A DNA stretch of 64,000 nt from positions 1-64,000 of the IMG/VR virus record IMGVR_UViG_3300009011_000012. One strand, given 5' to 3'. Position numbers and translations under genes: made by a program. The notes under the pieces are model-generated. The model saw only the letters and a list, made by a program, of their open reading frames with translations. It had not been told where the DNA came from and did no database searches. This stretch comes from a virus. This document shows positions 5,947-44,949 of the stretch, one piece after another (position 1 is the stretch's first letter; each line of letters opens with the position of its first letter).

Positions 5947-6249
5947 ATGAAGGTTGTTTTTTTAAGGCGTGCAATGCTCGCCATTAATTCCCTAAGAAAT
6001 GAAGATAAAAAAATGGTCACAAAATTAGTTAGTGATATGTCAACTGATTTTGAAGATGTCAAGCCAAATCAAATAAAGAAAATAGAAAGAAACCCTCGCG
6101 TAAGAATCTTAAGCGAAGGCCATAGCAATAAAATTTATGCGTACCAAGGAGATTATCCAATAAGGATACTTTTCTCTATAACAACAGGTGTTGCAGAAAA
6201 TATTTTGATAGTTGATATCGCTTTACCCCATCAATTGGTGGCAGAATGA
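5947..6249 (+). CDS. RelE/ParE-like small protein
   Basis: A 100-residue protein with the pattern of RelE-superfamily toxins: N-terminal helices (LRRAMLAINSLRNEDKKM), then strands ending in KIYAYQGDYPIRILFSI and ENILIVDIALPHQL. It is AT-rich and on the opposite strand to the head genes around it, marking an acquired cassette. TATAAT lies 20 bp upstream of the start. The stop overlaps the start of the next gene (ATGA), so the two are co-translated. There is no adjacent HTH antitoxin, so the usual RelBE reading does not fit; the partner here is a Shedu-like protein. Function as an mRNA interferase is inferred only. Confidence 0.65.
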   Translation: MKVVFLRRAMLAINSLRNEDKKMVTKLVSDMSTDFEDVKPNQIKKIERNPRVRILSEGHSNKIYAYQGDYPIRILFSITTGVAENILIVDIALPHQLVAE

Positions 6250-6863
6250 AAAATTTACAAAAGCACACATATTCAAAATCTGCCGCTATTTCACAACTCG
6301 CTGAGTATTCGAATTTACTAGCTCAAAAGCCTACTCTATCAGAGAGAAGAGACATACTGCCATTTTTCAAAAGAAGCCCTGACCTTAATCTTCTGATAAG
6401 TTATCATTTACCTAAAATGAGACAGGCTGATTGCTATGCGTCTGAGTTCGACATCTATAGTGATTTCAAAGCAGATATGATTGTAGGTGATAGTAAAAAC
6501 CATCAATATTTATTAATTGAGTTTGAGGATGGTCGGCCTGACAGTATCTTCAGATCAAAAGGCAATAAAGCTACTCCAGACTGGTCTCCAAGGTTTGAAA
6601 GTGCTCATTCACAATTAATGGACTGGTTATGGAAGATAGAGGATATGCGTGGCACAGGTGACTTCCTTAATACCTTCGGAAGTAGAAGAGCAAAATTTTC
6701 TGGCATTATAATTACTGGAAAAAACATGAATTTATCCAATCAGGAGTTAGACCGCTTAGAATGGCGAACATCTAAAACAATAGTTGAAAGTACGCATGTA
6801 ATGTGTGTTTCATTCGATGAGTTATTAGAAAACTTCCAACATTATATTTCAATTTATAAATAA
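6246..6863 (+). CDS. DUF4263 (Shedu-like) putative nuclease
   Basis: A 205-residue protein whose C-terminal two thirds resemble the DUF4263 domain of Shedu antiphage proteins. FKADMIVGD followed by YLLIEFEDGRPDSIF gives the D...ExE arrangement of a PD-(D/E)XK-like nuclease core. It is followed by TPDWSPRFESAHSQLMDW and a late strand FSGIIITGK. It overlaps the RelE-like gene by 4 bp and is followed by a hairpin. AT-rich composition and opposite orientation point to horizontal acquisition. A role in excluding other phages, or as a toxin held in check by its partner, is inference. I am fairly sure of the domain, not of the biology. Confidence 0.7.
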   Translation: MKNLQKHTYSKSAAISQLAEYSNLLAQKPTLSERRDILPFFKRSPDLNLLISYHLPKMRQADCYASEFDIYSDFKADMIVGDSKNHQYLLIEFEDGRPDSIFRSKGNKATPDWSPRFESAHSQLMDWLWKIEDMRGTGDFLNTFGSRRAKFSGIIITGKNMNLSNQELDRLEWRTSKTIVESTHVMCVSFDELLENFQHYISIYK

Positions 6864-6880
6864 GCCCCTATTAAGGGGCT
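6863..6880. terminator. Hairpin between the Shedu-like gene and ssb
   Basis: AGCCCCTATTAAGGGGCT, a 7-bp GC-rich stem with a short loop, sits between two converging genes. The same 18-mer recurs at 41993-42010 with long A/T tracts. Here the T tract is poor on both strands, so termination may be weaker. Confidence 0.6.
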
Positions 6881-6885
6881 GTGAT

Positions 6886-7416
6886 TTATAAAGCATATAT
6901 ACGGTGCTTACCGTACTGAAGTCCGATTGTTGCAAATGGAATATCGTCATCAAAATCTATCGGTGGCTCATTGCCTGAAGCCGGGGACGCCTGGCCGCCA
7001 CTGCTAGGTTGGTTCGATTGCCCCCACCCGCCCTGCTGGCCAACACCGTTCTGCGCTCCACCAGCTTGCCGTCCGCCAAGCATCTGCATGGTGCCGCCAA
7101 CATTTACCACGACTTCGGTTGTGTACTTTTCCGAACCAGATTGATCTGTCCATTTGCGGGTACGCAGCTGCCCTTCAATAAAGACTTGTGAGCCTTTACG
7201 CAGGTATTCACCGGCTACCTCTGCCAGCTTTCCAAACAGCACAACACGATGCCACTCAGTCTGTTCCTTCATCTCCCCGGTCTGCTTATCACGCCAGCTC
7301 TCAGAGGTGGCCAAAGTGAAGTTGGCAACCGCACCACCATTCGGCATATAACGCATCTCAGGATCGGAGCCCAGATTGCCGACCAAAATTACCTTGTTGA
7401 CTCCACGACTAGCCAT
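6886..7416 (-). CDS. ssb: Single-stranded DNA-binding protein
   Basis: A 176-residue SSB. The OB-fold domain covers about residues 1-110 ([50 protein letters not shown]). It is followed by a Gly/Gln-rich linker and the acidic [11 protein letters not shown] segment that in bacterial SSB binds partner proteins. Unusually, that segment is not at the very end: 15 more residues ([15 protein letters not shown]) follow it. SSB coats single strands during replication and recombination. P1 also carries ssb near lyz and ddrB. Confidence 0.95.
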
Positions 7417-7457
7417 TCTGTTTCACTCGTATTAAAAGGGCATGTTGCCCTCTATGC

Positions 7458-7831
7458 TCAGTCTGCATACCCGTTTTGGGCCACCCATAAGGCCGTTTGC
7501 TCTTTGGCCTGATCCAGCGTTAAGTGCTGGCCGACGTATTCTGCAATCGCGCGCAGCGTATCGATGAACTCCAGCTGAGGCACTTTTGTGAACACTCCCG
7601 CCAAGAAGTCTTTAACGACCTGAGGAGCATCTTCAGGTTCCGGAGGCAGTTCCGGAGCGGGCACTTCTTCGGGCCTGGGTTCTGCAGCTGCACCCAGGCC
7701 AAGCTTGATCATCACTTCCACAATCTGCTTGCCGATCGTCATGCGCTGCATAACTGACGCGGATTTTTGCTCCTGCATTAATCCGGACAGCTCTTTACCC
7801 AGTGCCAGGCGTTCCATGATAGACAATGCCA

Positions 7832-7832
<1 letters not shown>
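7458..7832 (-). CDS. ddrA: DdrA-like small head/antirestriction protein
   Basis: A 124-residue protein. The helical N-terminus (MALSIMERLALGKELSGLM) is followed by a Pro/Glu linker and a helical C-terminus (VVKDFLAGVFTKVPQLEFIDTLRAIAEY). The start codon overlaps the darA stop by one base. The order ssb, this gene, darA, hdf matches the P1 order ending ddrA, darA, hdf, which is the main basis for the name. In P1 these proteins take part in incorporation of Dar antirestriction proteins into heads. Confidence 0.55.
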
Positions 7833-9870
<2,038 letters not shown>

Positions 9871-9874
<4 letters not shown>

Positions 9875-11433: not shown

Positions 11434-12087
11434 TTAACTGAACGGCCTAGGCTTTAACTCAAGGGCCTTCTCCCAATCAGTTTTTTCTTCAAAATAGGCC
11501 TGATCAGCTTCATTATCATCATCCATAACCTGTTCCATCATAGATGCAGGAAATTTCCTATAGAGGGTCGATACACCAACGTCATAGATGATTGCCACTT
11601 GGTTCCTAGTTAATCCATTACGGATTAAGCGCCCCATTTGTTGCCATTCATCGTAAGAGTATTTTGGAGGCCTCCCGCCAATACGCCCTTTTTTTCTTGC
11701 TGCAGCCAAGCCTGCTCGGGTTCGCTCAATGATGATTTCCCTTTCCATTTCAGCAAGTGCTGACATGATGTGGAAAGTAAACCGCCCCATACTCGTATTG
11801 GTGTTAATCCCCTCCGTTATGGAGAGAAATTTCACATCCATTTTTTTAAATGTTTGCAATAGATCGGCCAGATTGATCAAGGAGCGCCCCAAGCGATCAA
11901 GTTTCCAAACTACAACCGTGTCACCGGGTTTAAGGGTTTTGAGTAATTTGTTCAGGCCCGGGCGCTTTGCTTTAACTCCGGTCATTTTATCTTCAAAAAT
12001 TAGTTCACATTTTGCTCGTTCAATTGCATCACGCTGTAATTCAGGATTTTGGTCATTTGTTGACACCCTAACATAGCCAATTCGCAT
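11434..12087 (-). CDS. cin: Serine DNA invertase (Cin/Min family)
   Basis: A 217-residue serine recombinase. MRIGYVRVSTNDQNPEL carries the catalytic Ser9, followed by TVVWKLDRLGRSL and MGRFTFHIMSALAEMEREII, the signature of Hin/Gin/Cin invertases. A C-terminal helix-turn-helix (GLTRNQVAIIYDVGVSTLYRK) binds the crossover sites. It is about 30 residues longer than P1 Cin, with an acidic tail (DDDNEADQAYFEEK). It is transcribed away from the invertible array that begins 65 bp upstream. It would catalyse inversions between the nine sites listed below, normally with Fis and an enhancer, which I could not locate. Confidence 0.93.
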   Translation of the reverse strand: MRIGYVRVSTNDQNPELQRDAIERAKCELIFEDKMTGVKAKRPGLNKLLKTLKPGDTVVVWKLDRLGRSLINLADLLQTFKKMDVKFLSITEGINTNTSMGRFTFHIMSALAEMEREIIIERTRAGLAAARKKGRIGGRPPKYSYDEWQQMGRLIRNGLTRNQVAIIYDVGVSTLYRKFPASMMEQVMDDDNEADQAYFEEKTDWEKALELKPRPFS

Positions 12088-12151: not shown

Positions 12152-12177
12152 TCATTCAAAACGTTGGTTTAAGAGAA
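12152..12177 (+). repeat. Invertase crossover site 1
   Basis: Twenty-six-base dix-type site with half-site GTTGGTTTAAGAGAAGC. Plus orientation, 65 bp from cin, at the start of silent cassette 1. Confidence 0.85.
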
Positions 12178-12510
12178 GCAAGGTTTGTAACAAGCAGAGG
12201 TCGTAATGCGAATGGTCAATGGATTATTTGGTCTGATGGAGCTATCGAGGTTATGGGTTATGGCGTAACCATTGAAAATGGATTGGCCACAGTAACGTAT
12301 CCGATCGAGTTACCTGATGTGAGCCGTTATATCAGTATTGCTGAACGGCTTGCTGGGGACTCTGGTACTGCGTTCAATTCTACTCATACATCTATGGTCA
12401 TCGACTCATTAACAACAAAAGCGGGTTTTAAAGCTCGTTGCACAATGGCAGCAACGGGTGCTCCTTCAAGCAATGGATTTTCATGGAGAGTGTACTATGC
12501 GCCTATTTAA
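12163..12510 (+). CDS. Silent tail-fibre 3' cassette 1
   Basis: Reading frame open from the crossover site (VGLREARFVT...) to the stop at 12510, ending GFSWRVYYAPI. It has no promoter or start of its own and becomes expressed when inversion fuses it to the S gene. The N-terminal junction VGL.EA matches LGLGEA in the expressed fibre. It encodes an alternative receptor-binding tip of about 115 residues. It is followed by its own truncated fibre-assembly gene. Confidence 0.75.
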   Translation, partial: VGLREARFVTSRGRNANGQWIIWSDGAIEVMGYGVTIENGLATVTYPIELPDVSRYISIAERLAGDSGTAFNSTHTSMVIDSLTTKAGFKARCTMAATGAPSSNGFSWRVYYAPI

Positions 12511-12694
12511 TCCCAAAACAATGACAGAAGTAATACCAGGCTTTCATGATATCGCTGGTGCTATTGAACTACCCGAGGATAATTGGTTTTTTAGAGAAAA
12601 TGTAATTCCGGAAGGAAAAATGCTCGCCGTTACTCAATCAGGCGAGCCAATTTTGGTCGATGTTAATTCAGCGCGGGAGGAGTCGGATAGGTGA
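12497..12694 (+). CDS. Truncated tail-fibre assembly protein (U'-like)
   Basis: A 65-residue protein beginning MRLFNPKTMTEV, overlapping the end of cassette 1. It resembles the N-terminal part of tail-fibre assembly chaperones (PEGKMLAVTQSGEPILVDV) but stops after ...SAREESDR, where the full-length family continues. It is comparable to the partial U' genes that accompany alternative fibre ends in P1. It may be a non-functional remnant moved with the cassette. Confidence 0.6.
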   Translation: MRLFNPKTMTEVIPGFHDIAGAIELPEDNWFFRENVIPEGKMLAVTQSGEPILVDVNSAREESDR

Positions 12695-12755
12695 TGTTGG
12701 GTGCTGAGGTGATATCTACCTCCTTGAGCGCCTTAATATAGAGCATGAAAAGCAT

Positions 12756-12781
12756 ACGCGCTTAACGTTGGTTTAGGAGAG
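12756..12781 (+). repeat. Invertase crossover site 2
   Basis: Plus-oriented site with half-site GTTGGTTTAGGAGAGGC at the start of silent cassette 2. The flank CGCTTAACG recurs at sites 5 and 7. Confidence 0.85.
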
Positions 12782-13114
12782 GCAGCGAAAATGGAGGCTG
12801 TCACAGCCCAATTAGCGGTTAATGGATGGCTTAAAATTCCTTTGCCAGGAGATCAAAATATTTATCTTCAGTGGACTGTTCTTACTTCGTCAAAAATCGA
12901 TATAAGCGGTGGAGAGATAGATGTCATGTCTTTCACGTGGCCTATAGCTTTCCCACATGGCGTACTGGCAATAAGTAATTCAGCAAACACCTATGTTCAA
13001 GCAGTTAGAAGCATCGAAGGTGCTAACCGATTGGGAGGGAAGCTGTTAGTAATGGCGCATAGCGGCAATATCGCACACACACCTGTGACAAGTATCATGG
13101 CGATCGGGTATTAA
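12767..13114 (+). CDS. Silent tail-fibre 3' cassette 2
   Basis: Open from the crossover (VGLGEAAKMEAVTAQ) to ...VTSIMAIGY. About 115 residues with the beta-rich tip pattern shared by all cassettes: NGWLKIP, IYLQW, a FTWPIAFP strand and a terminal IGY. Silent in the present orientation; alternative receptor-binding C-terminus. Confidence 0.75.
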   Translation, partial: VGLGEAAKMEAVTAQLAVNGWLKIPLPGDQNIYLQWTVLTSSKIDISGGEIDVMSFTWPIAFPHGVLAISNSANTYVQAVRSIEGANRLGGKLLVMAHSGNIAHTPVTSIMAIGY

Positions 13115-13135
13115 AGGTTGTTTTTTCACACTAAT

Positions 13136-13229
13136 CGAAATACCCGGAGGCAAGATGCTCGCCAAAAATGAAACCGGCGAGCCAATTTTGATTGGAATTA
13201 GTTATGTTCAGGAGGAATTTGCAGGTTGA
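13136..13229 (+). pseudogene. Remnant of a tail-fibre assembly gene
   Basis: The frame reads EIPGGKMLAKNETGEPILIG... to a TGA. It matches the PEGKMLA...GEPIL segment of the U'-like gene at 12497. There is no start or N-terminal half, so this is a fragment carried with cassette 2. Confidence 0.6.
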
Positions 13230-13262
13230 TATTAGATACTATGCAGATTTCTTCTGTGAAAG

Positions 13263-13604
13263 TTATTTACCTATGGCAATAATCATGGTCCCGTACTTTC
13301 CTGCCTTTGATGTTTTGATTTTCGCGAGCGTTCGATCACCTCCTATGATTTTGTACGTAGGCGCTTCTGTCTGTGTTGGATCTACCCACATAGCGGATAT
13401 TGCTAACAACGAATAGGGAAAAGCTACCGGGTAAACTGCTGGTGTTCCCTCTAAATCTGAGCTGTAAACATCAACTGAAAAGACCTGTACAATATGGCCG
13501 CTAGGTAATTTGAACCATCTCAGATCAGAAGTGAATGAACTCATATCGGGGAGCTGATTTGCGCCGGTGCCTACTGTTCTTTTCGCTGCCTCTCCTAAAC
13601 CAAC
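13263..13604 (-). CDS. Silent tail-fibre 3' cassette 3
   Basis: Minus-strand frame from site 3 (VGLGEAAKRTVGTGANQLPDM) to ...GTMIIAIGK, 113 residues. NQLPDMSSF after the junction recurs in cassettes 4, 5 and 8, so these share a domain boundary. It points the same way as S, so at least two successive inversions are needed to attach it. Confidence 0.75.
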   Translation of the reverse strand, partial: VGLGEAAKRTVGTGANQLPDMSSFTSDLRWFKLPSGHIVQVFSVDVYSSDLEGTPAVYPVAFPYSLLAISAMWVDPTQTEAPTYKIIGGDRTLAKIKTSKAGKYGTMIIAIGK

Positions 13605-13615
13605 GATTTTAGAGT
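13590..13615 (-). repeat. Invertase crossover site 3
   Basis: Minus-oriented site, CTCTCCTAAACCAACG on the plus strand, at the 5' end of cassette 3. Confidence 0.85.
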
Positions 13616-13635
13616 ATAAATTTAATACTACGCGT

Positions 13636-13995
13636 TCAGCATCCCATCACAATGAAGAATATGGAATTTGTAGTCGGTGTTACGTAGGTAAAGTTAACTT
13701 GAGAACGGGAAGTAAGTGCCGTATTAAATCCAACGGACCGTACAGACGGATCTTGTGTACTAAACATTGCGATAACAGAAAGTAATGCTGTAGGCATTGC
13801 GATTGGGAGGTTTACATATTTATTTGAAACCACACCATTCGTTGTGTCTACAGCAAACCATCCCCATTGAATGATCAAACCACCAGGCAATTTTGAATAG
13901 CCGTTAGTGCTCATGTTGCTTGAGAAAAATGACATATCCGGTATCTGGTTAGCAGCAGAACCAATTGATCGTTTCGCTGCCTCTCCTAAACCAAC
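13636..13995 (-). CDS. Silent tail-fibre 3' cassette 4
   Basis: Minus-strand frame from site 4 (VGLGEAAKRSIGSAANQIPDM) to ...NSIFFIVMGC, 119 residues. Its first 20 residues are nearly identical to those of cassette 5, after which the tips diverge. Silent; alternative fibre tip. Confidence 0.75.
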   Translation of the reverse strand, partial: VGLGEAAKRSIGSAANQIPDMSFFSSNMSTNGYSKLPGGLIIQWGWFAVDTTNGVVSNKYVNLPIAMPTALLSVIAMFSTQDPSVRSVGFNTALTSRSQVNFTYVTPTTNSIFFIVMGC

Positions 13996-14006
13996 GTATG
14001 CAGTGC
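13981..14006 (-). repeat. Invertase crossover site 4
   Basis: Minus-oriented site facing away from site 5, which lies 12 bp further on. The short spacer between the two cores (ATGCAGTGCTTAAAAAATAC and on) recurs inverted between sites 7 and 8. Confidence 0.85.
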
Positions 14007-14017
14007 TTAAAAAATAC

Positions 14018-14043
14018 ACGCGCTTAACGTTGGTTTAGGAGAA
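14018..14043 (+). repeat. Invertase crossover site 5
   Basis: Plus-oriented site, half-site GTTGGTTTAGGAGAAGC, start of cassette 5. Confidence 0.85.
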
Positions 14044-14397
14044 GCTGCTAAGAGAAGTATTGGGAACGGCGCAAATCAGGTTCCTGATATGGGTTTTTTC
14101 AAATCTCAGATAGGATCTAACGGCTACGCTTGCTCTCCAAGCGGATACATTTTGCAATGGGGCCTACTTACCGGGGGGAATCAGTATGATTTTAACTTTC
14201 CCATATCTTTCCCTACCGGAGGTTTCATTTTAATTGGAATGGCACATACTACCGATACTGCCGGTGTAACTGCACTATCGATAGTAAATGGGTTTATCAG
14301 AGGTAATTCTGCAGGATATTTAGCAAGTGCCAATATCATTAACGGGGCACCTCAGTATTTCGCTAGATCGATACAGTGGTTTGCCTTAGGAAAATGA
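14029..14397 (+). CDS. Silent tail-fibre 3' cassette 5
   Basis: Plus-strand frame from site 5 (VGLGEAAKRSIGNGANQVPDM) to ...SIQWFALGK, 122 residues, with the shared pattern NGYACSPSGYILQWG and FNFPISFP. A single inversion between sites 5 and 9 would attach it to S. Confidence 0.75.
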   Translation, partial: VGLGEAAKRSIGNGANQVPDMGFFKSQIGSNGYACSPSGYILQWGLLTGGNQYDFNFPISFPTGGFILIGMAHTTDTAGVTALSIVNGFIRGNSAGYLASANIINGAPQYFARSIQWFALGK

Positions 14398-14406
14398 TAA
14401 TTTCAG

Positions 14407-14766
14407 TTAGTAACCAAGCATAATATAACAAGCTGTTTGGAGTCTCGTTGGGATGTGTGGGTATGGTGCATTAGAAACGTCTCTAAAGACTGCAGAAAAT
14501 CCAATGGTTGACCGAGGACCGAAGGAAGCAGTGAAGCCACCATTGATGGTATCGACTCCAGTCAGTAATCCACTTAAAACCCCACTGGGAAAAGCAATCG
14601 GATAGGTTGCTTCTCCCACTGTGCCTGCTCCAGAATTTGAAACCGTCCCCCATTGAAGGAGCAAAATTTTTTGTTTCCCCGCCTCACTTAATGGAATCTT
14701 CAAGTACCCTCCAGCGGAAATTAGTCCTAGGATGCCGCTACGATCTGAGGCCTCTCCTAAACCAAC
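14407..14766 (-). CDS. Silent tail-fibre 3' cassette 6
   Basis: Minus-strand frame from site 6 (VGLGEASDRSGILGLISAGG) to ...TACYIMLGY, 119 residues. Pattern YLKIP, ILLLQWG, TYPIAFPSG shared with other tips. It converges on cassette 5 with 9 bp between the stops. Silent. Confidence 0.75.
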   Translation of the reverse strand, partial: VGLGEASDRSGILGLISAGGYLKIPLSEAGKQKILLLQWGTVSNSGAGTVGEATYPIAFPSGVLSGLLTGVDTINGGFTASFGPRSTIGFSAVFRDVSNAPYPHIPTRLQTACYIMLGY

Positions 14767-14777
14767 GTATTAAGCGC
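14752..14777 (-). repeat. Invertase crossover site 6
   Basis: Minus-oriented site, CTCTCCTAAACCAACG on the plus strand, at the 5' end of cassette 6. Confidence 0.85.
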
Positions 14778-14799
14778 TCAAAAGGTATACTCTGAAGTA

Positions 14800-15183
14800 T
14801 CAATACCCGATTGCAAACCAGCAGAAGCTGTTTCCTCCCCCGCTACTTGAGACGTAGGCAGTAGTCGAGTGGAGTGACCATGTAAATTTACCGGCTGAAT
14901 ATGGATAGGCACTTGCTATATAAGTATTAATAACATCGTTTGACGAGGTAATGATATTTATCACCGAATTTGGGAAAGTGATAGGGAAATTTCTTTCTCC
15001 AATATACTTACTTACACTGCCTCCGAGTACAGCATAGGCACTATGTTCTCCCGAGTAATCAACCCTTATTCTCCCCCACTGAACTATCAACTTTTTTCCA
15101 TCTTTGGTTGGAACTGCCAACCATCCATCCACATCTTGTGCGCCTTCTGCAGGTTTTAGTTTGATGACTTCTTCTAAACCAAC
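14800..15183 (-). CDS. Silent tail-fibre 3' cassette 7
   Basis: Minus-strand frame from site 7 (VGLEEVIKLKPAEGAQDVDG) to ...NSFCWFAIGY, 127 residues. The junction sequence is the most divergent (VGLEEV rather than VGLGEA), reflecting a substitution in the crossover half-site. Silent. Confidence 0.75.
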   Translation of the reverse strand, partial: VGLEEVIKLKPAEGAQDVDGWLAVPTKDGKKLIVQWGRIRVDYSGEHSAYAVLGGSVSKYIGERNFPITFPNSVINIITSSNDVINTYIASAYPYSAGKFTWSLHSTTAYVSSSGGGNSFCWFAIGY

Positions 15184-15194
15184 GTTAAGCGCGT
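15169..15194 (-). repeat. Invertase crossover site 7 (divergent)
   Basis: Minus-oriented site with half-site GTTGGTTTAGAAGAAGT. The changed outer bases could lower Cin binding, making cassette 7 a rare variant. Confidence 0.75.
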
Positions 15195-15205
15195 GTATTT
15201 TTTAA

Positions 15206-15231
15206 GCACTGCATACGTTGGTTTGGGAGAA
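15206..15231 (+). repeat. Invertase crossover site 8
   Basis: Plus-oriented site with half-site GTTGGTTTGGGAGAAGC, start of cassette 8. Paired with site 9 it bounds the segment containing cassette 8 and the complete assembly gene U. Confidence 0.85.
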
Positions 15232-15585
15232 GCTGCGCGACGTGATATCGGCACGGGGTCAAATCAACTCCCGGAGATGAGTATGTTCGCTAGCGCATTT
15301 AGTGGCGCAAGCGGTTACTGCAAGCTGCCTAATGGCGTAATATTGCAAAGTGCCGCCATTAGTGGCATTCCTGCTGGCGGTTCGCTTGAAGTCACCTATC
15401 CGATCCCATTTCCTAACCTAATGATGTTTGTAATTGCAGCCCCGGCGATCGCTGCTAATGGAACAACACCCATTTCAATTGCGATAGACGCAGCATCTGT
15501 AACCGACCCCAAAAAAACCATCATGATAAGGAATATTTCAACAGTAAATAATGGTGGGACGCGCCTGTTTGCGTTAGGTAGATAG
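15217..15585 (+). CDS. Silent tail-fibre 3' cassette 8
   Basis: Plus-strand frame from site 8 (VGLGEAARRDIGTGSNQLPEM) to ...GGTRLFALGR, 122 residues. It is followed on the same strand by the only full-length fibre-assembly gene. Inversion between sites 8 and 9 would produce S-cassette 8-U, the arrangement closest to P1 S-U. Confidence 0.75.
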   Translation, partial: VGLGEAARRDIGTGSNQLPEMSMFASAFSGASGYCKLPNGVILQSAAISGIPAGGSLEVTYPIPFPNLMMFVIAAPAIAANGTTPISIAIDAASVTDPKKTIMIRNISTVNNGGTRLFALGR

Positions 15586-15662
15586 CGAATAGGCAAACAA
15601 CGAATTTTATGCACCTATTTCACATAGTTCATAGCATTGAATCTTCATGTGAGAGGGCAAAT

Positions 15663-16136
15663 ATGGAATACTTTTACAGCGCTTCAACAAATGCTTTTTA
15701 TCCAGCGGCTTTGTTGGACAGTTACAAACAGGCCGGAACTCTACCTGATGACATCCAATCAGTAGGGGAGGATGTTTTCATGGAATTTACCGCAACACAA
15801 TTAGGTATGCGACGAGTGCCCAATCAGGAGGGTTTCCCCATGTGGGAGGCCATACCTGCAGTGGTGCTGACTCAGGACGAGATAAAAAGTAAAGCAAGAA
15901 AGTTACGTGATAGCTTCATATCCGCAACAGATAGCATGCTCGTTTCAGACTACACCATTAACGATACCGAGCTCACCGAGGATGAAAGGGAGGAGCTAAT
16001 GAGCGTCAGGCTCACCTTCAAGAAATGGCCAACAAATGATGGCTGGCCTGGTATAGCATTACCTGACATTCCTCAATGGTTATTGGTTGAAGCGGTTAAT
16101 AATGGGTACAGAGTATACAGCTGGCCTGAAGAGTAA
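15663..16136 (+). CDS. U: Tail-fibre assembly protein (U-like)
   Basis: A 157-residue tail-fibre assembly chaperone of the Mu/P1 U family. The ATG at 15663 starts MEYFYSASTNAFYPAALLD. The C-terminal half has the family pattern (LTEDEREELMSVRLTFKKWPTNDGWPGIALPDIPQW). These proteins help fold and trimerise the distal fibre. In the present orientation the gene is antisense to S and cut off from the S promoter. A Rho-independent terminator follows. An inversion at sites 8/9 would place it downstream of S. Confidence 0.8.
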   Translation: MEYFYSASTNAFYPAALLDSYKQAGTLPDDIQSVGEDVFMEFTATQLGMRRVPNQEGFPMWEAIPAVVLTQDEIKSKARKLRDSFISATDSMLVSDYTINDTELTEDEREELMSVRLTFKKWPTNDGWPGIALPDIPQWLLVEAVNNGYRVYSWPEE

Positions 16137-16148
16137 AATCATAATATC

Positions 16149-16173
16149 AAGCACCATATGACATGGTGCTTTT
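16149..16173 (+). terminator. Terminator after U
   Basis: AAGCACCAT, a 5-base loop and ATGGTGCTTTT: a 9-bp stem with a short T run, 12 bp after the U stop. Confidence 0.75.
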
Positions 16174-16233
16174 AACTAACTTTTTAGATAGGCATTGTGT
16201 TTTTATTAGGTCATTTAATTGATTCTAAAGACA

Positions 16234-17592
16234 TCAGTATCCGATTGAAAACCACGTAAACATACGGGAGTTACCAGGTAGCGTATCATCAAGGAAAAAC
16301 TGAGCATTAGCGCCGGTTTTCGTTGGGTAGCCGACTGAAACAGCTTGCCTTAAAGTTCTATAGACTGGCACATAATCATAATTTGATGCCCTTACGCCTG
16401 CGCTTGAATATATACCGAAGCAAGCCGACGGGAACGCGACTGGAAACGTAATATCACAATTATATGTAGTGCTTGTTACTCCCCCCTCCCATCGCCCCCA
16501 TTGAAGTATTATTTGCTTACCCCCGTATATAGGCAGGTTTAGCCAACCAGAGCCTAAAAGTGTGCCAGTTGCCGCTGGCAGTTTAGCGGCCTCTCCTAAA
16601 CCAAGGTATTCGAGAATACCGGCAACCGTTTTACCAGAAAGATCTGTGAGGGTTTGGTTAAGCGGCTGCTTGCCATCGAGGGCCTTTTTCATAGTAGATG
16701 CAAACTGGGGATCATTATTCAGCGCAGCAGCAAGCTCACTTAGAGTATCGAGGCCCTCGGGAGTTGAACCACCTACCAGAGCAGAAATCGCCGCCTTAAC
16801 GAAAGCGGTGGTGGCTATCTGTGTGTTATTTACCGTTTGGTCAGCTGTAGGAGCCTTAGGTGTCCCGGTTAACGTCGGGCTCGCCAATGGGGCCTTAAGG
16901 TCTAGTGCCTTATCAATTGTCTGCGCGAAATTACCATCGTTGTTTATCGCTGCGGCTAGCTGGGCCAGTGTAGAGAGGGCTTCCGGCACTCCCTCCCCAG
17001 ACAGGAAGGAAATCGCTTTTTTAATAGCGAGGGAGTTCGCAGCGACCCCTTCTTCTTCGCTATCAAGTTCTGCGCTTAACTGAAGCCCCAAGCTGCGAAA
17101 TACACGGAAAGAGGTGTCTATCATTTCCGATGTAATCTGCGTTGCCCCCTCCGGTACCGCAACCCGGCACAACTCTATTTGGCCGTCTTTTAGTTGCTGA
17201 GCCGTAATAGTAACAATCTCAGCTGCATTAACAGTCGATTCGTCCGTTACTTGGCTCGTTTTCACACCAAACTTATAAAAAGCCTGCAACGCGATAATCG
17301 TTGTCTGGCCAGCAGGGATGTCGACGTCAATATCTAAAATCTGCTGTACTGACAACTGGACGTTATCAATATCAACAGACGCAGCACCGCCTTCATTGCC
17401 GGAGGTCACTGTAACCTTCAGACCGTTGCCAGGCACGACATTAAAACCTGAATAGATTCCAGGCTTAATAATATTTTTAAATTTCCGGTTTAATGCTGTT
17501 GAGGTGTAGGCCTCGTAAAACTGTACGTCTGTGATCAGGCTCTTACGAGAATCTGCGGCCAGAAGGCTCACACCACTAATAGATCCGCTCAT
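16234..17592 (-). CDS. S: Tail fibre protein S, currently expressed variant
   Basis: A 452-residue tail fibre. The constant part (about residues 1-328) has an N-terminal virion-attachment domain (LLAADSRKSLITDVQFYEAYTS and on) and the repeated fibre motif SPTLTGTPKAPTADQTVNNT...IATTAFVKAAISAL. Crossover site 9 lies in codons YLGLGEA; the last 123 residues are cassette 9, with ILQWGRW, ITFPVAFP and a terminal FSIGY. This tip presumably binds the host receptor, so the array changes host range. The start at 17592 follows the R stop by 2 bp. Downstream on the same strand there is no sense assembly gene in this orientation. Confidence 0.85.
   Translation of the reverse strand: MSGSISGVSLLAADSRKSLITDVQFYEAYTSTALNRKFKNIIKPGIYSGFNVVPGNGLKVTVTSGNEGGAASVDIDNVQLSVQQILDIDVDIPAGQTTIIALQAFYKFGVKTSQVTDESTVNAAEIVTITAQQLKDGQIELCRVAVPEGATQITSEMIDTSFRVFRSLGLQLSAELDSEEEGVAANSLAIKKAISFLSGEGVPEALSTLAQLAAAINNDGNFAQTIDKALDLKAPLASPTLTGTPKAPTADQTVNNTQIATTAFVKAAISALVGGSTPEGLDTLSELAAALNNDPQFASTMKKALDGKQPLNQTLTDLSGKTVAGILEYLGLGEAAKLPAATGTLLGSGWLNLPIYGGKQIILQWGRWEGGVTSTTYNCDITFPVAFPSACFGIYSSAGVRASNYDYVPVYRTLRQAVSVGYPTKTGANAQFFLDDTLPGNSRMFTWFSIGY
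16591..16616 (-). repeat. Invertase crossover site 9 (expression site)
   Basis: Minus-oriented site inside S, CTCTCCTAAACCAAGG on the plus strand. It has the canonical CCAAGG centre of Cin sites, whereas the other sites have CCAACG. It is the junction between constant and variable fibre parts. Confidence 0.88.
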
Positions 17593-17594
17593 AC

Positions 17595-18044
17595 TCAGCT
17601 CCCCGCCTGCTCAATCATCATGATGATTGAGTAATTCTTTCCCAGGTATACAGTATCTTGCTGAGTAGCAAGCACGGCGATGGCTTTGTCTTCTGCGTCC
17701 AATAGCACGAGTGTATTGAAGTCGTAAACAGTGTCTTCCTCAAGGCTGTCTTGAGGCAACACGGCATTAAGCGTGATGATGTTCCCCTGAACTGACCGCA
17801 CAAGTTCACATTTCGCGAAGTTGGTAGTCATGTCTTCCAGCACGAAGTCAGTTGGGATATCTGAGATATTCCAACCACCAGCCTCATTCACCGAAACCAG
17901 CGTCGATTTGCCCCAGCATGCCGTTTTGATTTCAAAGCGTTGGCCGTTGCCGATCGCAGACTCCGCGCGGCGTGAGTAGTAGTAATCGAGTAATTGCGCT
18001 TTATAAAGCGTACCGCTAGTACGAGCGGCGAGAACATCAGCCAT
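17595..18044 (-). CDS. R: Tail fibre-associated protein R
   Basis: A 149-residue protein directly upstream of S, with the position of P1 gene R. MADVLAARTSGTLYKAQLLDYYYSRRAESAIGN resembles the N-terminal domain that anchors fibres to the baseplate in P2/Mu-type phages. It probably connects the long fibre to the baseplate or assists its assembly. The stop lies 2 bp before the S start, so translation is coupled. A hairpin precedes its start. Confidence 0.7.
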   Translation of the reverse strand: MADVLAARTSGTLYKAQLLDYYYSRRAESAIGNGQRFEIKTACWGKSTLVSVNEAGGWNISDIPTDFVLEDMTTNFAKCELVRSVQGNIITLNAVLPQDSLEEDTVYDFNTLVLLDAEDKAIAVLATQQDTVYLGKNYSIIMMIEQAGS

Positions 18045-41988: not shown

Positions 41989-42017
41989 AAAAAGCCCCTA
42001 TTAAGGGGCTTTTTTTA
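41986..42017. terminator. Bidirectional terminator between parR and dmt
   Basis: AAAAAAAGCCCC-TATTAA-GGGGCTTTTTTT: perfect stem with A/T tracts on both sides. It reuses the same 18-base hairpin as 6863-6880. Confidence 0.92.
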
Positions 42018-44063
42018 GCATCCAAGTTTAGCCAGGATATCACTGGCCATCTCCCGGCTACCGGATTTACACGACACCGAACGCCGAGCCTGCAGCTGGT
42101 GGAGGTCAAAACCGTTATTGCGGTACAACTCCCGTATTTTAGGCGCGCCGCTGTTCGTGATAAGCACCTTTGCTCCTCGCTTATTAGCTGCCACCAGCAG
42201 TGAAACCAATCTTTCCTGTTCGTCAAAACCAAAGCTGTGGCCAGAATAGCTCGTGAAACCATTCTTGCCCGGCATGGGCTCGTATGGAGGGTCACAAAAA
42301 ATAACATCGCCTTCACCGGCCTGCGTGATCACGCCAGCGAAGTCGCCAGTGACAAACTCGCTTATGTTTGCCGCCCCAAGGAACTGCTCCATCTCTTCAA
42401 GTGGGAAGCGAGGCGCTTTATATTTGCCGTAACCAACATTGAATTCTCCGGACAGGTTATAGCGCACAAGGCCGTTGAATGCGTGACGGTTAAGGTACAA
42501 GAACGCAGCGGCTAAATGACAGTCGTCTAAAGCTTTCTCATTGAACAACCTACGTATTCGAAGAAATGAATCGGCGGTATTGTAGTTCTCGAAGTAATGA
42601 TGGGCGAGGGTTATAAGAGCATGCCCCTCACGCTGTAATACCTTATAGAAATTGATTAGGTGGCCGTTAACATCATTAAGCAGATTCTGTTTATAGCCCG
42701 CATTGGTAAAGACCGAGCCGCCGCCGACAAATGGCTCGATCAAACGTTTCCCGTGCGGCAAGTGCTCATTCAACACTTCCATTACGGAAAACTTGCCACC
42801 AGCCCATTTGAAGATCGGGCGCTCAAACTCTTCCGGCGCGCGAACGACGCGAAGGTGTGTAACGGTGCTCTTGAGAGGGCTAGCCTCGCGAATAGCATCA
42901 TCTATACGCTTGCCTATCCATCTCATTACCGGCACCGCCATAGAGTTTCCCAGAGCTTTGTAGCGCGGACCATCAGCTGCAAGTTTTTTTGCTTCTTCGA
43001 CTGTAATATCTGGGAAGTAATGATGCAGATGGGTAATGTCATCCTCTCGGATTTGCTTACGCTTTGCTGTAGGGATGAGGGTGTACTGGTCAGGGAAGCC
43101 CTGAAGTCGTTCGCATTCAACTGGAGTTAAGCGCCGAACATTAATCGGGTCCACTGTCACAACAATTGGAGCCTCATGATTACAGGTAAGCGTTGGCGTT
43201 GCGCCATCAGTTTTGATCTCTGCTCCGCCTTGGCCATGTGCCATAGCTATCAGATGGTTTTTTTCGACTTCGCAACTGAGTCCAGTGCCATGCGTAGCAT
43301 TGTCGGCAGAGTTCTGCCGCGCGCTCCGGCCCGGCGGAGTATCCCTGCGCTCGCCTTCGCGCTCAAATAGTATTTCGGATGGATCGATGTCTGTTCGAGC
43401 ACTTGAGACAACGAAGACACGGTTGCGTTGTTGGGCCACGCCGAAGTATTGGGCATCGAGGGTTCGCCAGGCCACTTTGCGCTTTCGCCCAATAACACAA
43501 CCAGACTTTGGCCACTTTGGAAAATGTTGACTGGCTTTTTTGCTCCATGTCCAGAAAGCACTGGATTTTCCGTCTGCAGGTCGTTGACCTGGTTCAAATG
43601 GATCATCTTCACCAGCCAATCCGGCAAGGAAACAGCCGAATGCGTTATCTGTGGAGCTGAGGACTCCGCTAACATTTTCCCACACCGAGATTGCTGGCTG
43701 GTGGCCAGATTTAATACGTGTTTCATCGATAACATCCAGTAACTCAACATATTTTAGAGTCAGCTGCCCACGCTCGTCTTCCAAACCACCACGTAACCCG
43801 GCAATTGAAAATGCTTGGCAGGGCGTGCCACCCACCAGCAAATCAGGGGCATTAATCTCACCCGAAGCAATGCGACTGGCTATTTGCGTCATATCCCCTA
43901 AGTTCACAGTGTCGGGATAACGATAAGCAAGTACAGCTGAAGGGAAGGGGGCTATCTCGCTCAGCCAGTCGGCGCTCCACCCAAGCGGCCCCCAGGCGCA
44001 GCTGGCCGCCTCAATACCAGAGCAAACTGAGCCGAAGCTTACCTTAGCGTTGTGCTTCGCCAC
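42015..44063 (-). CDS. dmt: Bifunctional DNA methyltransferase Dmt (Dcm-like plus Dam-like)
   Basis: About 682 residues. The likely start is the GTG at 44063 (VAKHNAKVSFGSVCSGIEAAS), 20 bp inside rdgC; a TTG lies one codon upstream. The N-terminal 400 residues are a C5-cytosine methylase: SAM motif FGSVCSGIEA, catalytic GTPCQAFSIAG, ENV in VWENVSGVL, and QRNRVFVV. The C-terminal 260 residues are an N6-adenine (Dam-type) methylase: KWAGGK, IEPFVGGGSVF and DPPYEP. P1 Dmt has the same fusion. It can mark phage DNA against host enzymes and, through GATC methylation, affect oriR function and packaging. Confidence 0.93.
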   Translation of the reverse strand: MAKHNAKVSFGSVCSGIEAASCAWGPLGWSADWLSEIAPFPSAVLAYRYPDTVNLGDMTQIASRIASGEINAPDLLVGGTPCQAFSIAGLRGGLEDERGQLTLKYVELLDVIDETRIKSGHQPAISVWENVSGVLSSTDNAFGCFLAGLAGEDDPFEPGQRPADGKSSAFWTWSKKASQHFPKWPKSGCVIGRKRKVAWRTLDAQYFGVAQQRNRVFVVSSARTDIDPSEILFEREGERRDTPPGRSARQNSADNATHGTGLSCEVEKNHLIAMAHGQGGAEIKTDGATPTLTCNHEAPIVVTVDPINVRRLTPVECERLQGFPDQYTLIPTAKRKQIREDDITHLHHYFPDITVEEAKKLAADGPRYKALGNSMAVPVMRWIGKRIDDAIREASPLKSTVTHLRVVRAPEEFERPIFKWAGGKFSVMEVLNEHLPHGKRLIEPFVGGGSVFTNAGYKQNLLNDVNGHLINFYKVLQREGHALITLAHHYFENYNTADSFLRIRRLFNEKALDDCHLAAAFLYLNRHAFNGLVRYNLSGEFNVGYGKYKAPRFPLEEMEQFLGAANISEFVTGDFAGVITQAGEGDVIFCDPPYEPMPGKNGFTSYSGHSFGFDEQERLVSLLVAANKRGAKVLITNSGAPKIRELYRNNGFDLHQLQARRSVSCKSGSREMASDILAKLGC

Positions 44064-44949
44064 CAACGACCTCCACCAGTGCAGTAAACAGCGCAGATAA
44101 CTCGGCAGTAAAAAGAATGAAGTCAGCGTCAAATCTTTGAAGCACATCTTCACGGTCGATGTCGTCGTTCTGATCGTACAGTTCGTCGGTGAAGCTAAGT
44201 CCTTTGATTGTCATGTCATCGCACAGGCGGAATGAGGCACGATCGGACCAGTTTAAACCGACGGCAGTAGCTACCTTTCCTGCGTCGATATGGGTCAGGA
44301 CTTCCTCAGAATGCAGATCCTGTTTCTTACAGCGCACAGCGCCGCCATCTTCCAAAATGGCTTTGAGCATTACGTCTGTACCGGCAGTAAAACCGCGCGG
44401 GAAACCGCTTCGAATCCATTCGGTGATGGTCAACTCTACTGGTTCAGCGGGGGTGAATGGAACGACCGGCAGACTTCCTAGGGACTTACGCAGCAACGCC
44501 AGCATATCTTCAGCCTTACGAGCGCTATTGCCTTCAACAAAGACGAGTCCTTCTTTACGGTCCACTATCAGGCGATTGCGCGATTTTCGGGTGAAGGCTC
44601 GGGGGAGAAGTGAGTGTAATACCTCATCCTTCAATGAGTCCTTCTCAGTCTTCTTAAGCTTGCGTCCCTGTTCGATTTCAAGCTTCGTAATTTTTTTATT
44701 CAATTCGTCCTTAATGACATGCGTAGGAATGATTTTTTCCTCACGTTGCATAGTCATAAGAAGATATTGCCCGCTTTCATACGTTAGATTATCCCCGATT
44801 GTTTCTATCCACCCAGCAGTGGCCATATCCTGTGACCCACAAGGTTTAAAAAGGAAGCTTTTCAGCGATTCGTTAACGGCTGCAGTCTGTAGCTCAACGT
44901 CACGCGAGAGGCGGTAAATCAGAATGCCTTTGAATGCTATAGATTTCAT
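44044..44949 (-). CDS. hrdC: RdgC-like recombination-associated protein
   Basis: A 301-residue RdgC homologue: FKGILIYRLSRDVEL at the N-terminus, FKPCGSQDMATAGWIE, LPRAFTRKSRNRLIVD and RCKKQDLHSEEVLTHIDAGK are hallmark segments. RdgC forms DNA-encircling dimers that limit RecA access. P1 carries the homologue HrdC next to dmt, exactly as here. The gene is preceded by the C1-like motif 15 bp upstream of the start. The LTF..., AELSALF end overlaps the dmt start. Confidence 0.92.
   Translation of the reverse strand: MKSIAFKGILIYRLSRDVELQTAAVNESLKSFLFKPCGSQDMATAGWIETIGDNLTYESGQYLLMTMQREEKIIPTHVIKDELNKKITKLEIEQGRKLKKTEKDSLKDEVLHSLLPRAFTRKSRNRLIVDRKEGLVFVEGNSARKAEDMLALLRKSLGSLPVVPFTPAEPVELTITEWIRSGFPRGFTAGTDVMLKAILEDGGAVRCKKQDLHSEEVLTHIDAGKVATAVGLNWSDRASFRLCDDMTIKGLSFTDELYDQNDDIDREDVLQRFDADFILFTAELSALFTALVEVVGGEAQR

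Follow-up and report, generated by a model that had tools for sequence, protein, structure and literature searches.

Organization of the invertase and tail fiber locus

We analyzed a window of 64,000 nucleotides (nt), comprising positions 1 to 64,000 of the virus record IMGVR_UViG_3300009011_000012 in IMG/VR. The window contains a DNA invertase gene next to an array of nine crossover sites, each of which starts an alternative 3′ end that reads in frame with a single constant tail fiber gene, the arrangement that defines a Min-type inversion system. The locus was compared with those of Enterobacter hormaechei plasmid p60214CZ_1 (NZ_CP085744), Cronobacter phage JK004 (MZ188976) and JBIWA008. The genes on either side of the array are listed here; lengths are in amino acids (aa) and E is the expectation value of a match.

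11434–12087, minus strand: Din-family serine DNA invertase, 217 aa (Resolvase and HTH_7; phrog_125 DNA invertase, E = 9e-82)
12003–12065, minus strand: putative Fis recombinational enhancer inside the invertase gene, at the same positions as the annotated P1 cin enhancer
16606–17592, minus strand: constant part of the tail fiber gene, homolog of P1 S (46–66% identical to the P1 S constant part; phrog_454 tail fiber, E = 6e-114)
17595–18044, minus strand: fixed tail fiber gene upstream of S, homolog of P1 R (46% identical; phrog_2032, E = 2e-59)

The invertase was 65.4% identical to P1 Cin over residues 1–182, and its closest PDB matches were the 193-aa DNA invertases 3uj3 and 4m6f (Gin). Its Resolvase N-terminal domain, HTH_7 domain and catalytic VSTNDQN and LDRLGRS motifs placed it in the Din family of serine invertases, and not among the tyrosine recombinases of Rci-type shufflons. 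The protein also carries a C-terminal extension of ~30 residues that is without counterpart in P1 Cin; its Enterobacter and Citrobacter relatives are likewise extended. Two Fis-like 15-mers were found at nt 23–37 and 71–85 of the invertase gene. They lie 48 bp apart, start to start, a spacing that by sequence matches the two Fis sites of a Din-family enhancer.

Crossover sites

The motif TTGGTTTAGGAGA occurred nine times in the window at no more than one mismatch, and the sites that contain it span 12152–16616. Dinucleotide-preserving shuffles gave a mean of 0.04 occurrences and a maximum of 1, and the motif was not found beyond the nine sites in the rest of the 89,473-bp record. The sites and the two spacers between them are as follows.

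12152–12177, plus strand: crossover site 1, TCATTCAAAACG-TT-GGTTTAAGAGAA
12756–12781, plus strand: crossover site 2
13590–13615, minus strand: crossover site 3
13981–14006, minus strand: crossover site 4
13995–14029, plus strand: 35-bp spacer, cassettes 4 and 5 head to head (exact reverse complement of 15183–15217)
14018–14043, plus strand: crossover site 5
14752–14777, minus strand: crossover site 6
15169–15194, minus strand: crossover site 7
15183–15217, minus strand: 35-bp spacer, cassettes 7 and 8 head to head (exact reverse complement of 13995–14029)
15206–15231, plus strand: crossover site 8
16591–16616, minus strand: crossover site 9, constant/variable junction of the expressed fiber gene

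Each site had the 26-bp layout of Din-family crossover sites, with an A-half, a central TT and a B-half. The half that faces the cassette, the B-half (GGTTTAGGAGA), is conserved, whereas the A-half is variable. The sites matched the consensus published for the crossover sites of Mu, P1, e14, p15B and S. boydii, as listed in PMC4134206. Because there are more than two sites and they lie in both orientations, they delimit overlapping invertible segments, as in a Min-type array.

A tenth, looser match to the motif at 12583 was rejected; it falls inside a chaperone fragment, and no cassette begins there. The 35-bp spacers are without a cassette; p60214CZ_1 contains a near-identical pair and JBIWA008 a single copy. 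The spacer pair seem to be movable hubs.

Tip cassettes

The array contains nine tip cassettes; in this record, number 9 is attached to the constant part.

12163–12510, plus strand: tip cassette 1, silent, 115 residues (weak Gp53-like_C hit that misses the cut-off, E = 0.0057; 75.7% identity with one JBIWA008 cassette)
12767–13114, plus strand: tip cassette 2, silent, 115 residues (Gp53-like_C match)
13263–13604, minus strand: tip cassette 3, silent, 113 residues (86% identity with the JK004 cassette that lies at the constant-gene junction)
13636–13995, minus strand: tip cassette 4, silent, 119 residues (88% identity with one JK004 cassette)
14029–14397, plus strand: tip cassette 5, silent, 122 residues (98% identical in p60214CZ_1)
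14407–14766, minus strand: tip cassette 6, silent, 119 residues (97% identical in p60214CZ_1)
14800–15183, minus strand: tip cassette 7, silent, 127 residues (Gp53-like_C match)
15217–15585, plus strand: tip cassette 8, silent, 122 residues (100% protein identity with the p60214CZ_1 copy)
16234–16605, minus strand: tip cassette 9, joined to the constant part, 123 residues (Gp53-like_C, E = 9.7e-10)

Joining the constant part to each cassette yielded an open protein of 442–456 aa in all nine cases. At each site only the reading frame set by the fiber gene was open, and shuffled cassette sequences were open in just 0–5 of 2000 trials each. The highest identity between any two cassettes was 52% and none was duplicated; thus, the cassettes are not recent copies of one another. 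A consensus promoter scan of the array region returned fewer promoter-like sites than shuffled sequence.

All nine tips matched the Pfam family Gp53-like_C, cassette 1 weakly. A profile built from these tips and those of the relatives matched the foot regions at the C termini of R1 and R2 pyocin fibers (6cxb, 6cl5, 6ct8; best E = 1.6e-12) and the AP22 gp53 foot (4mtm; E = 8e-11). The R pyocin fiber foot is a lectin-like jellyroll, and truncated fibers that contain it suffice for subtype- and strain-specific cell binding (PMC6363177). By homology to these feet, the tips are probably lectin-like and receptor-binding.

An earlier, sequence-only reading of this DNA had proposed a Cin-type invertase followed by nine crossover sites (four plus, five minus) and nine cassettes of 115–127 residues. 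The motif count against shuffles confirmed the number and orientation of the sites, and all nine cassettes are open in frame, though their lengths run from 113 to 127. The invertase does lie beside the array and belongs to the Din family, with the gene itself (11434–12087) just outside the interval given for the array, 12152–17592.

Rearrangement in a related plasmid

The plasmid p60214CZ_1 also has nine sites, and it shares cassettes 1, 2, 3, 5, 6 and 8 with the window. Its invertase was 99.5% identical to that of the window and its constant part 98% identical. In five of the six shared cassettes, identity was 96–99% in the 100 bp after the core, whereas the preceding 40 bp were unrelated (28–47%). 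Conversely, the constant gene was 100% identical before the core and 47% after it, and it is joined to a different cassette in the plasmid. The breaks between the two sequences fall at the central dinucleotide, with the non-coding halves swapped, and two blocks are inverted: that from cassette 1 to cassette 3, and that of cassettes 5 and 6. The sequence comparison shows differences of the kind that inversion at the crossover sites would yield; it speaks to past rearrangement and not to its rate.

The plasmid array is also damaged, with a frameshift in cassette 1, truncated cassettes 2 and 3, and an IS3 insertion sequence; at least four cassettes are broken. The first two sites flank this IS3-family element (6394–8006 of the p60214CZ_1 stretch), which either interrupts or adjoins the cassette fused to the constant gene; thus, the current fiber of that isolate is probably broken.

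We estimated selection from the ratio of non-synonymous to synonymous substitution rates (dN/dS). Values for cassettes 1, 3 and 4 against JK004 and JBIWA008 were 0.05–0.11; for cassettes 5 and 8 against JK004, dS was saturated. Cassette 8 differed from its p60214CZ_1 counterpart, outside the site, by six synonymous and no non-synonymous changes. Purifying selection on silent cassettes indicates that DNA silent here has been kept functional, and the pattern fits regular expression following inversion.

Proposed mechanism and alternatives

The locus is very probably a Min-type system, in the sense of the multiple-inversion system that p15B Min has been called (PMC6109161), carried by a P1-like phage-plasmid whose host is likely Enterobacter, in which any of nine lectin-like tips could be joined to the constant fiber gene and host range altered. 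The invertase and host Fis, bound at the enhancer in the invertase's own gene, would pair any two oppositely oriented sites, and the intervening DNA would invert via strand exchange at the TT core. Successive rounds of inversion would permute the segments, so that any of the nine tips may land in frame behind the constant gene while the other eight are silent. As the tips resemble lectin-like receptor-binding feet, switching would change the surface structure bound, and hence host range. We infer the dependence on Fis and on this invertase, as well as the change of receptor. The sequence-only reading of a Min-like array is supported by the invertase family, the conserved Fis enhancer, the in-frame junctions and the natural rearrangements at the sites in p60214CZ_1.

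Several observations weigh against this interpretation. The record contains a single arrangement, and a 33-kb metagenome contig at 100% identity has the same left junction. The plasmid p60214CZ_1 is an independent element, and the two arrangements could be many generations apart. The A-halves of the sites are degenerate (3–8 of 12 palindromic matches), and the Fis sites were scored by a simple consensus together with homology to P1 cin. The metagenome contig is identical over 9,785 bp and ends 57 bp into cassette 1; we do not read this end as a sign of isomers. 

Searches of viral and genome contigs with exact junction patterns gave no match, and hence no recombinant junction from this phage itself; a search of the two collections for relatives by the constant fiber part likewise returned none.

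One alternative is that the array is now a library frozen in place, or close to it, which inverted in the past and has no useful switching rate in this phage today. The one arrangement seen in two contigs agrees with such a state, and the broken cassettes of p60214CZ_1 show that decay of an array is possible. In the window, however, all nine cassettes are intact, with the silent ones under purifying selection, and the intact invertase is 98–99.5% conserved across three elements. We consider a frozen library unlikely; judging from the relatives, switching is probably active now.

It is more improbable still that homologous recombination or horizontal phage-to-phage exchange accounts for most of the cassette shuffling, with the sites merely a conserved linker encoding LGLGEAA. 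The cassette half of each site is indeed coding and conserved at the protein level. JK004 and JBIWA008 have just part of the cassette set, from which it follows that exchange between phages also occurs. Breaks at the central dinucleotide, inverted blocks and swapped non-coding halves argue instead for site-specific inversion, as does the intact invertase with its enhancer adjoining the array. Least probable of all is that an assembler merged the cassettes of several phages or isomers: inversion arrays are difficult to assemble and this one comes from an IMG/VR virus record, but there is no duplication among its cassettes, whose best pair stops at the 52% given above, the complete isolate plasmid p60214CZ_1 has the same design with nine sites and shares six cassettes with the window, and phage JK004 likewise has nine sites.

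Comparison with known inversion systems

A breadth-first enumeration of the arrangements that inversion can produce gave 129,024 for the layouts of the window and p60214CZ_1, and 80,640 for JK004. Six-site layouts gave 240 for one class and 320 or 384 for others. Dropping inversions shorter than 100 bp left the count of reachable arrangements unchanged, and the number of possible expressed fiber proteins is nine. The Min system of p15B, described by Sandmeier, Iida and Arber, reportedly has six sites and 240 isomers, a figure that one class of the six-site layouts reproduced. It resembles the window in its Din-family serine invertase, its P1-like element, and its constant 5′ fiber part with variable 3′ parts supplied through overlapping invertible segments. 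The window differs in having nine of each, sites and tips, where p15B Min has six of each, and 129,024 arrangements compared with 240. The repertoire is larger than that of p15B, as the sequence-only reading had proposed, but it is not unique, as that reading had implied, since p60214CZ_1 and JK004 also have nine sites.

The P1 Cin system and its C-segment share with the window the gene order, the S and R genes, the type of 26-bp site and the place of the Fis enhancer. P1, however, has two long variable parts and two sites, and a separate chaperone (U or U′) accompanies each part, whereas the window has nine short tips, one intact chaperone in the array, and an invertase in the opposite direction to P1 cin. 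Phage JK004 is alike in its nine sites, nine open cassettes (113–135 aa) and one intact tail fiber assembly (Tfa) chaperone, with orthologs of cassettes 3, 4 and 8 at 86, 88 and 76%. It differs in the site (TTCGTTT, versus TTGGTTT in the window), in the invertase (57% identical) and in cassette order. The JK004 array crosses the start/end junction of its record and is unannotated as an array, most of its cassettes being unannotated or labeled hypothetical. The p60214CZ_1 array differs in its arrangement and in its broken cassettes.

In the Enterobacter prophage FRphi, a Gin-type invertase similarly swaps C-terminal fiber ends; that shufflon has three isoforms in a chromosomally integrated prophage, and only one of the three infected the tested host (PMC13418256). 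The Rci shufflon of R64/IncI also switches the 3′ end of an adhesin gene through multiple inverted segments, with seven PilV variants in R64, but it uses a tyrosine recombinase, a pilus adhesin and other sites (PMC5430464).

Two scans of 76 viral contigs with related invertases, many of them incomplete, found none with more than six sites. The Citrobacter plasmids examined had one to four sites in an exact scan, and JBIWA008 had five. No paper on a nine-site tail fiber array was found within our partial coverage of the literature. We concluded that this Min-type inversion system is genuine and intact, and that it exceeds in size the described systems known to us.

Chaperone genes in the array

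12497–12694, plus strand: 65-aa chaperone fragment behind cassette 1 (phrog_5400, positions 1–62 of 145)
13115–13236, plus strand: chaperone remnant behind cassette 2 (a 32-aa stretch shares 50% identity with the fragment behind cassette 1)
15663–16136, plus strand: Tfa-type tail fiber assembly chaperone, 157 aa, the sole intact one inside the array (phrog_188, E = 1.3e-31)

The sequence-only reading had placed the only full-length assembly gene with cassette 8 and fragments of it with cassettes 1 and 2. Both the 65-aa piece behind cassette 1 and the short remnant behind cassette 2 were found, the former belonging to another chaperone type than the intact Tfa. The claim for cassette 8 holds within the array; outside it, the fixed gene at 17595–18044 is also annotated as tail fiber assembly. 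The intact Tfa neighbors cassette 8 in p60214CZ_1 as well. Its relatives stand elsewhere in the other two arrays: in JBIWA008, which has two more chaperones, the gene follows a relative of cassette 1, and in JK004 it follows a tip resembling cassette 9. A single intact Tfa for nine tips, with a neighboring tip that varies among relatives, is an unusual trait. One shared Tfa may serve all nine tips, unlike the U gene that P1 has for each fiber end. We tentatively suggest, as a possible though not a favored view, that the array of this P1-like lineage has turned into a high-capacity modular library of nine short lectin-like tips with one shared chaperone tied to none of them, whose tips come and go and pass between phages of Enterobacter and Cronobacter.

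Genome setting and host

The gene order darA-hdf-lydB-lydA-invertase-array-S-R-16-bplA is that of P1, and a sheath, a portal, ParA and a partition protein are encoded elsewhere in the window. This content and order are those of a P1-like phage-plasmid, and the relatives are circular plasmids of 88–91 kb. The nearest relatives are Enterobacter plasmids, with 87–96% DNA identity over the neighboring 10 kb; on this basis the host is most likely Enterobacter.

Three other genes drew our attention. A gene at 6246–6863, among the structural genes, matches Shedu SduA (PADLOC, E = 5e-81) and is a candidate anti-phage defense; an SduA-type gene is also annotated in both Enterobacter plasmid relatives. 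At 7832–9874 lies a DarA homolog with a long Pro-Glu repeat run between its N- and C-terminal domains, and at 42015–44153 a 712-aa protein with two methyltransferase-like regions (phrog_116).

Implications

In at least three independent records, these data extend the Din-type tail fiber switch to nine sites, compared with the six reported for p15B. With nine natural receptor-binding tips, the one backbone provides a ready set for mapping tip to surface. Deposited phage genomes can hide arrays of this kind: that of JK004 is unannotated, and the host range recorded for such a phage may therefore describe one isomer only.

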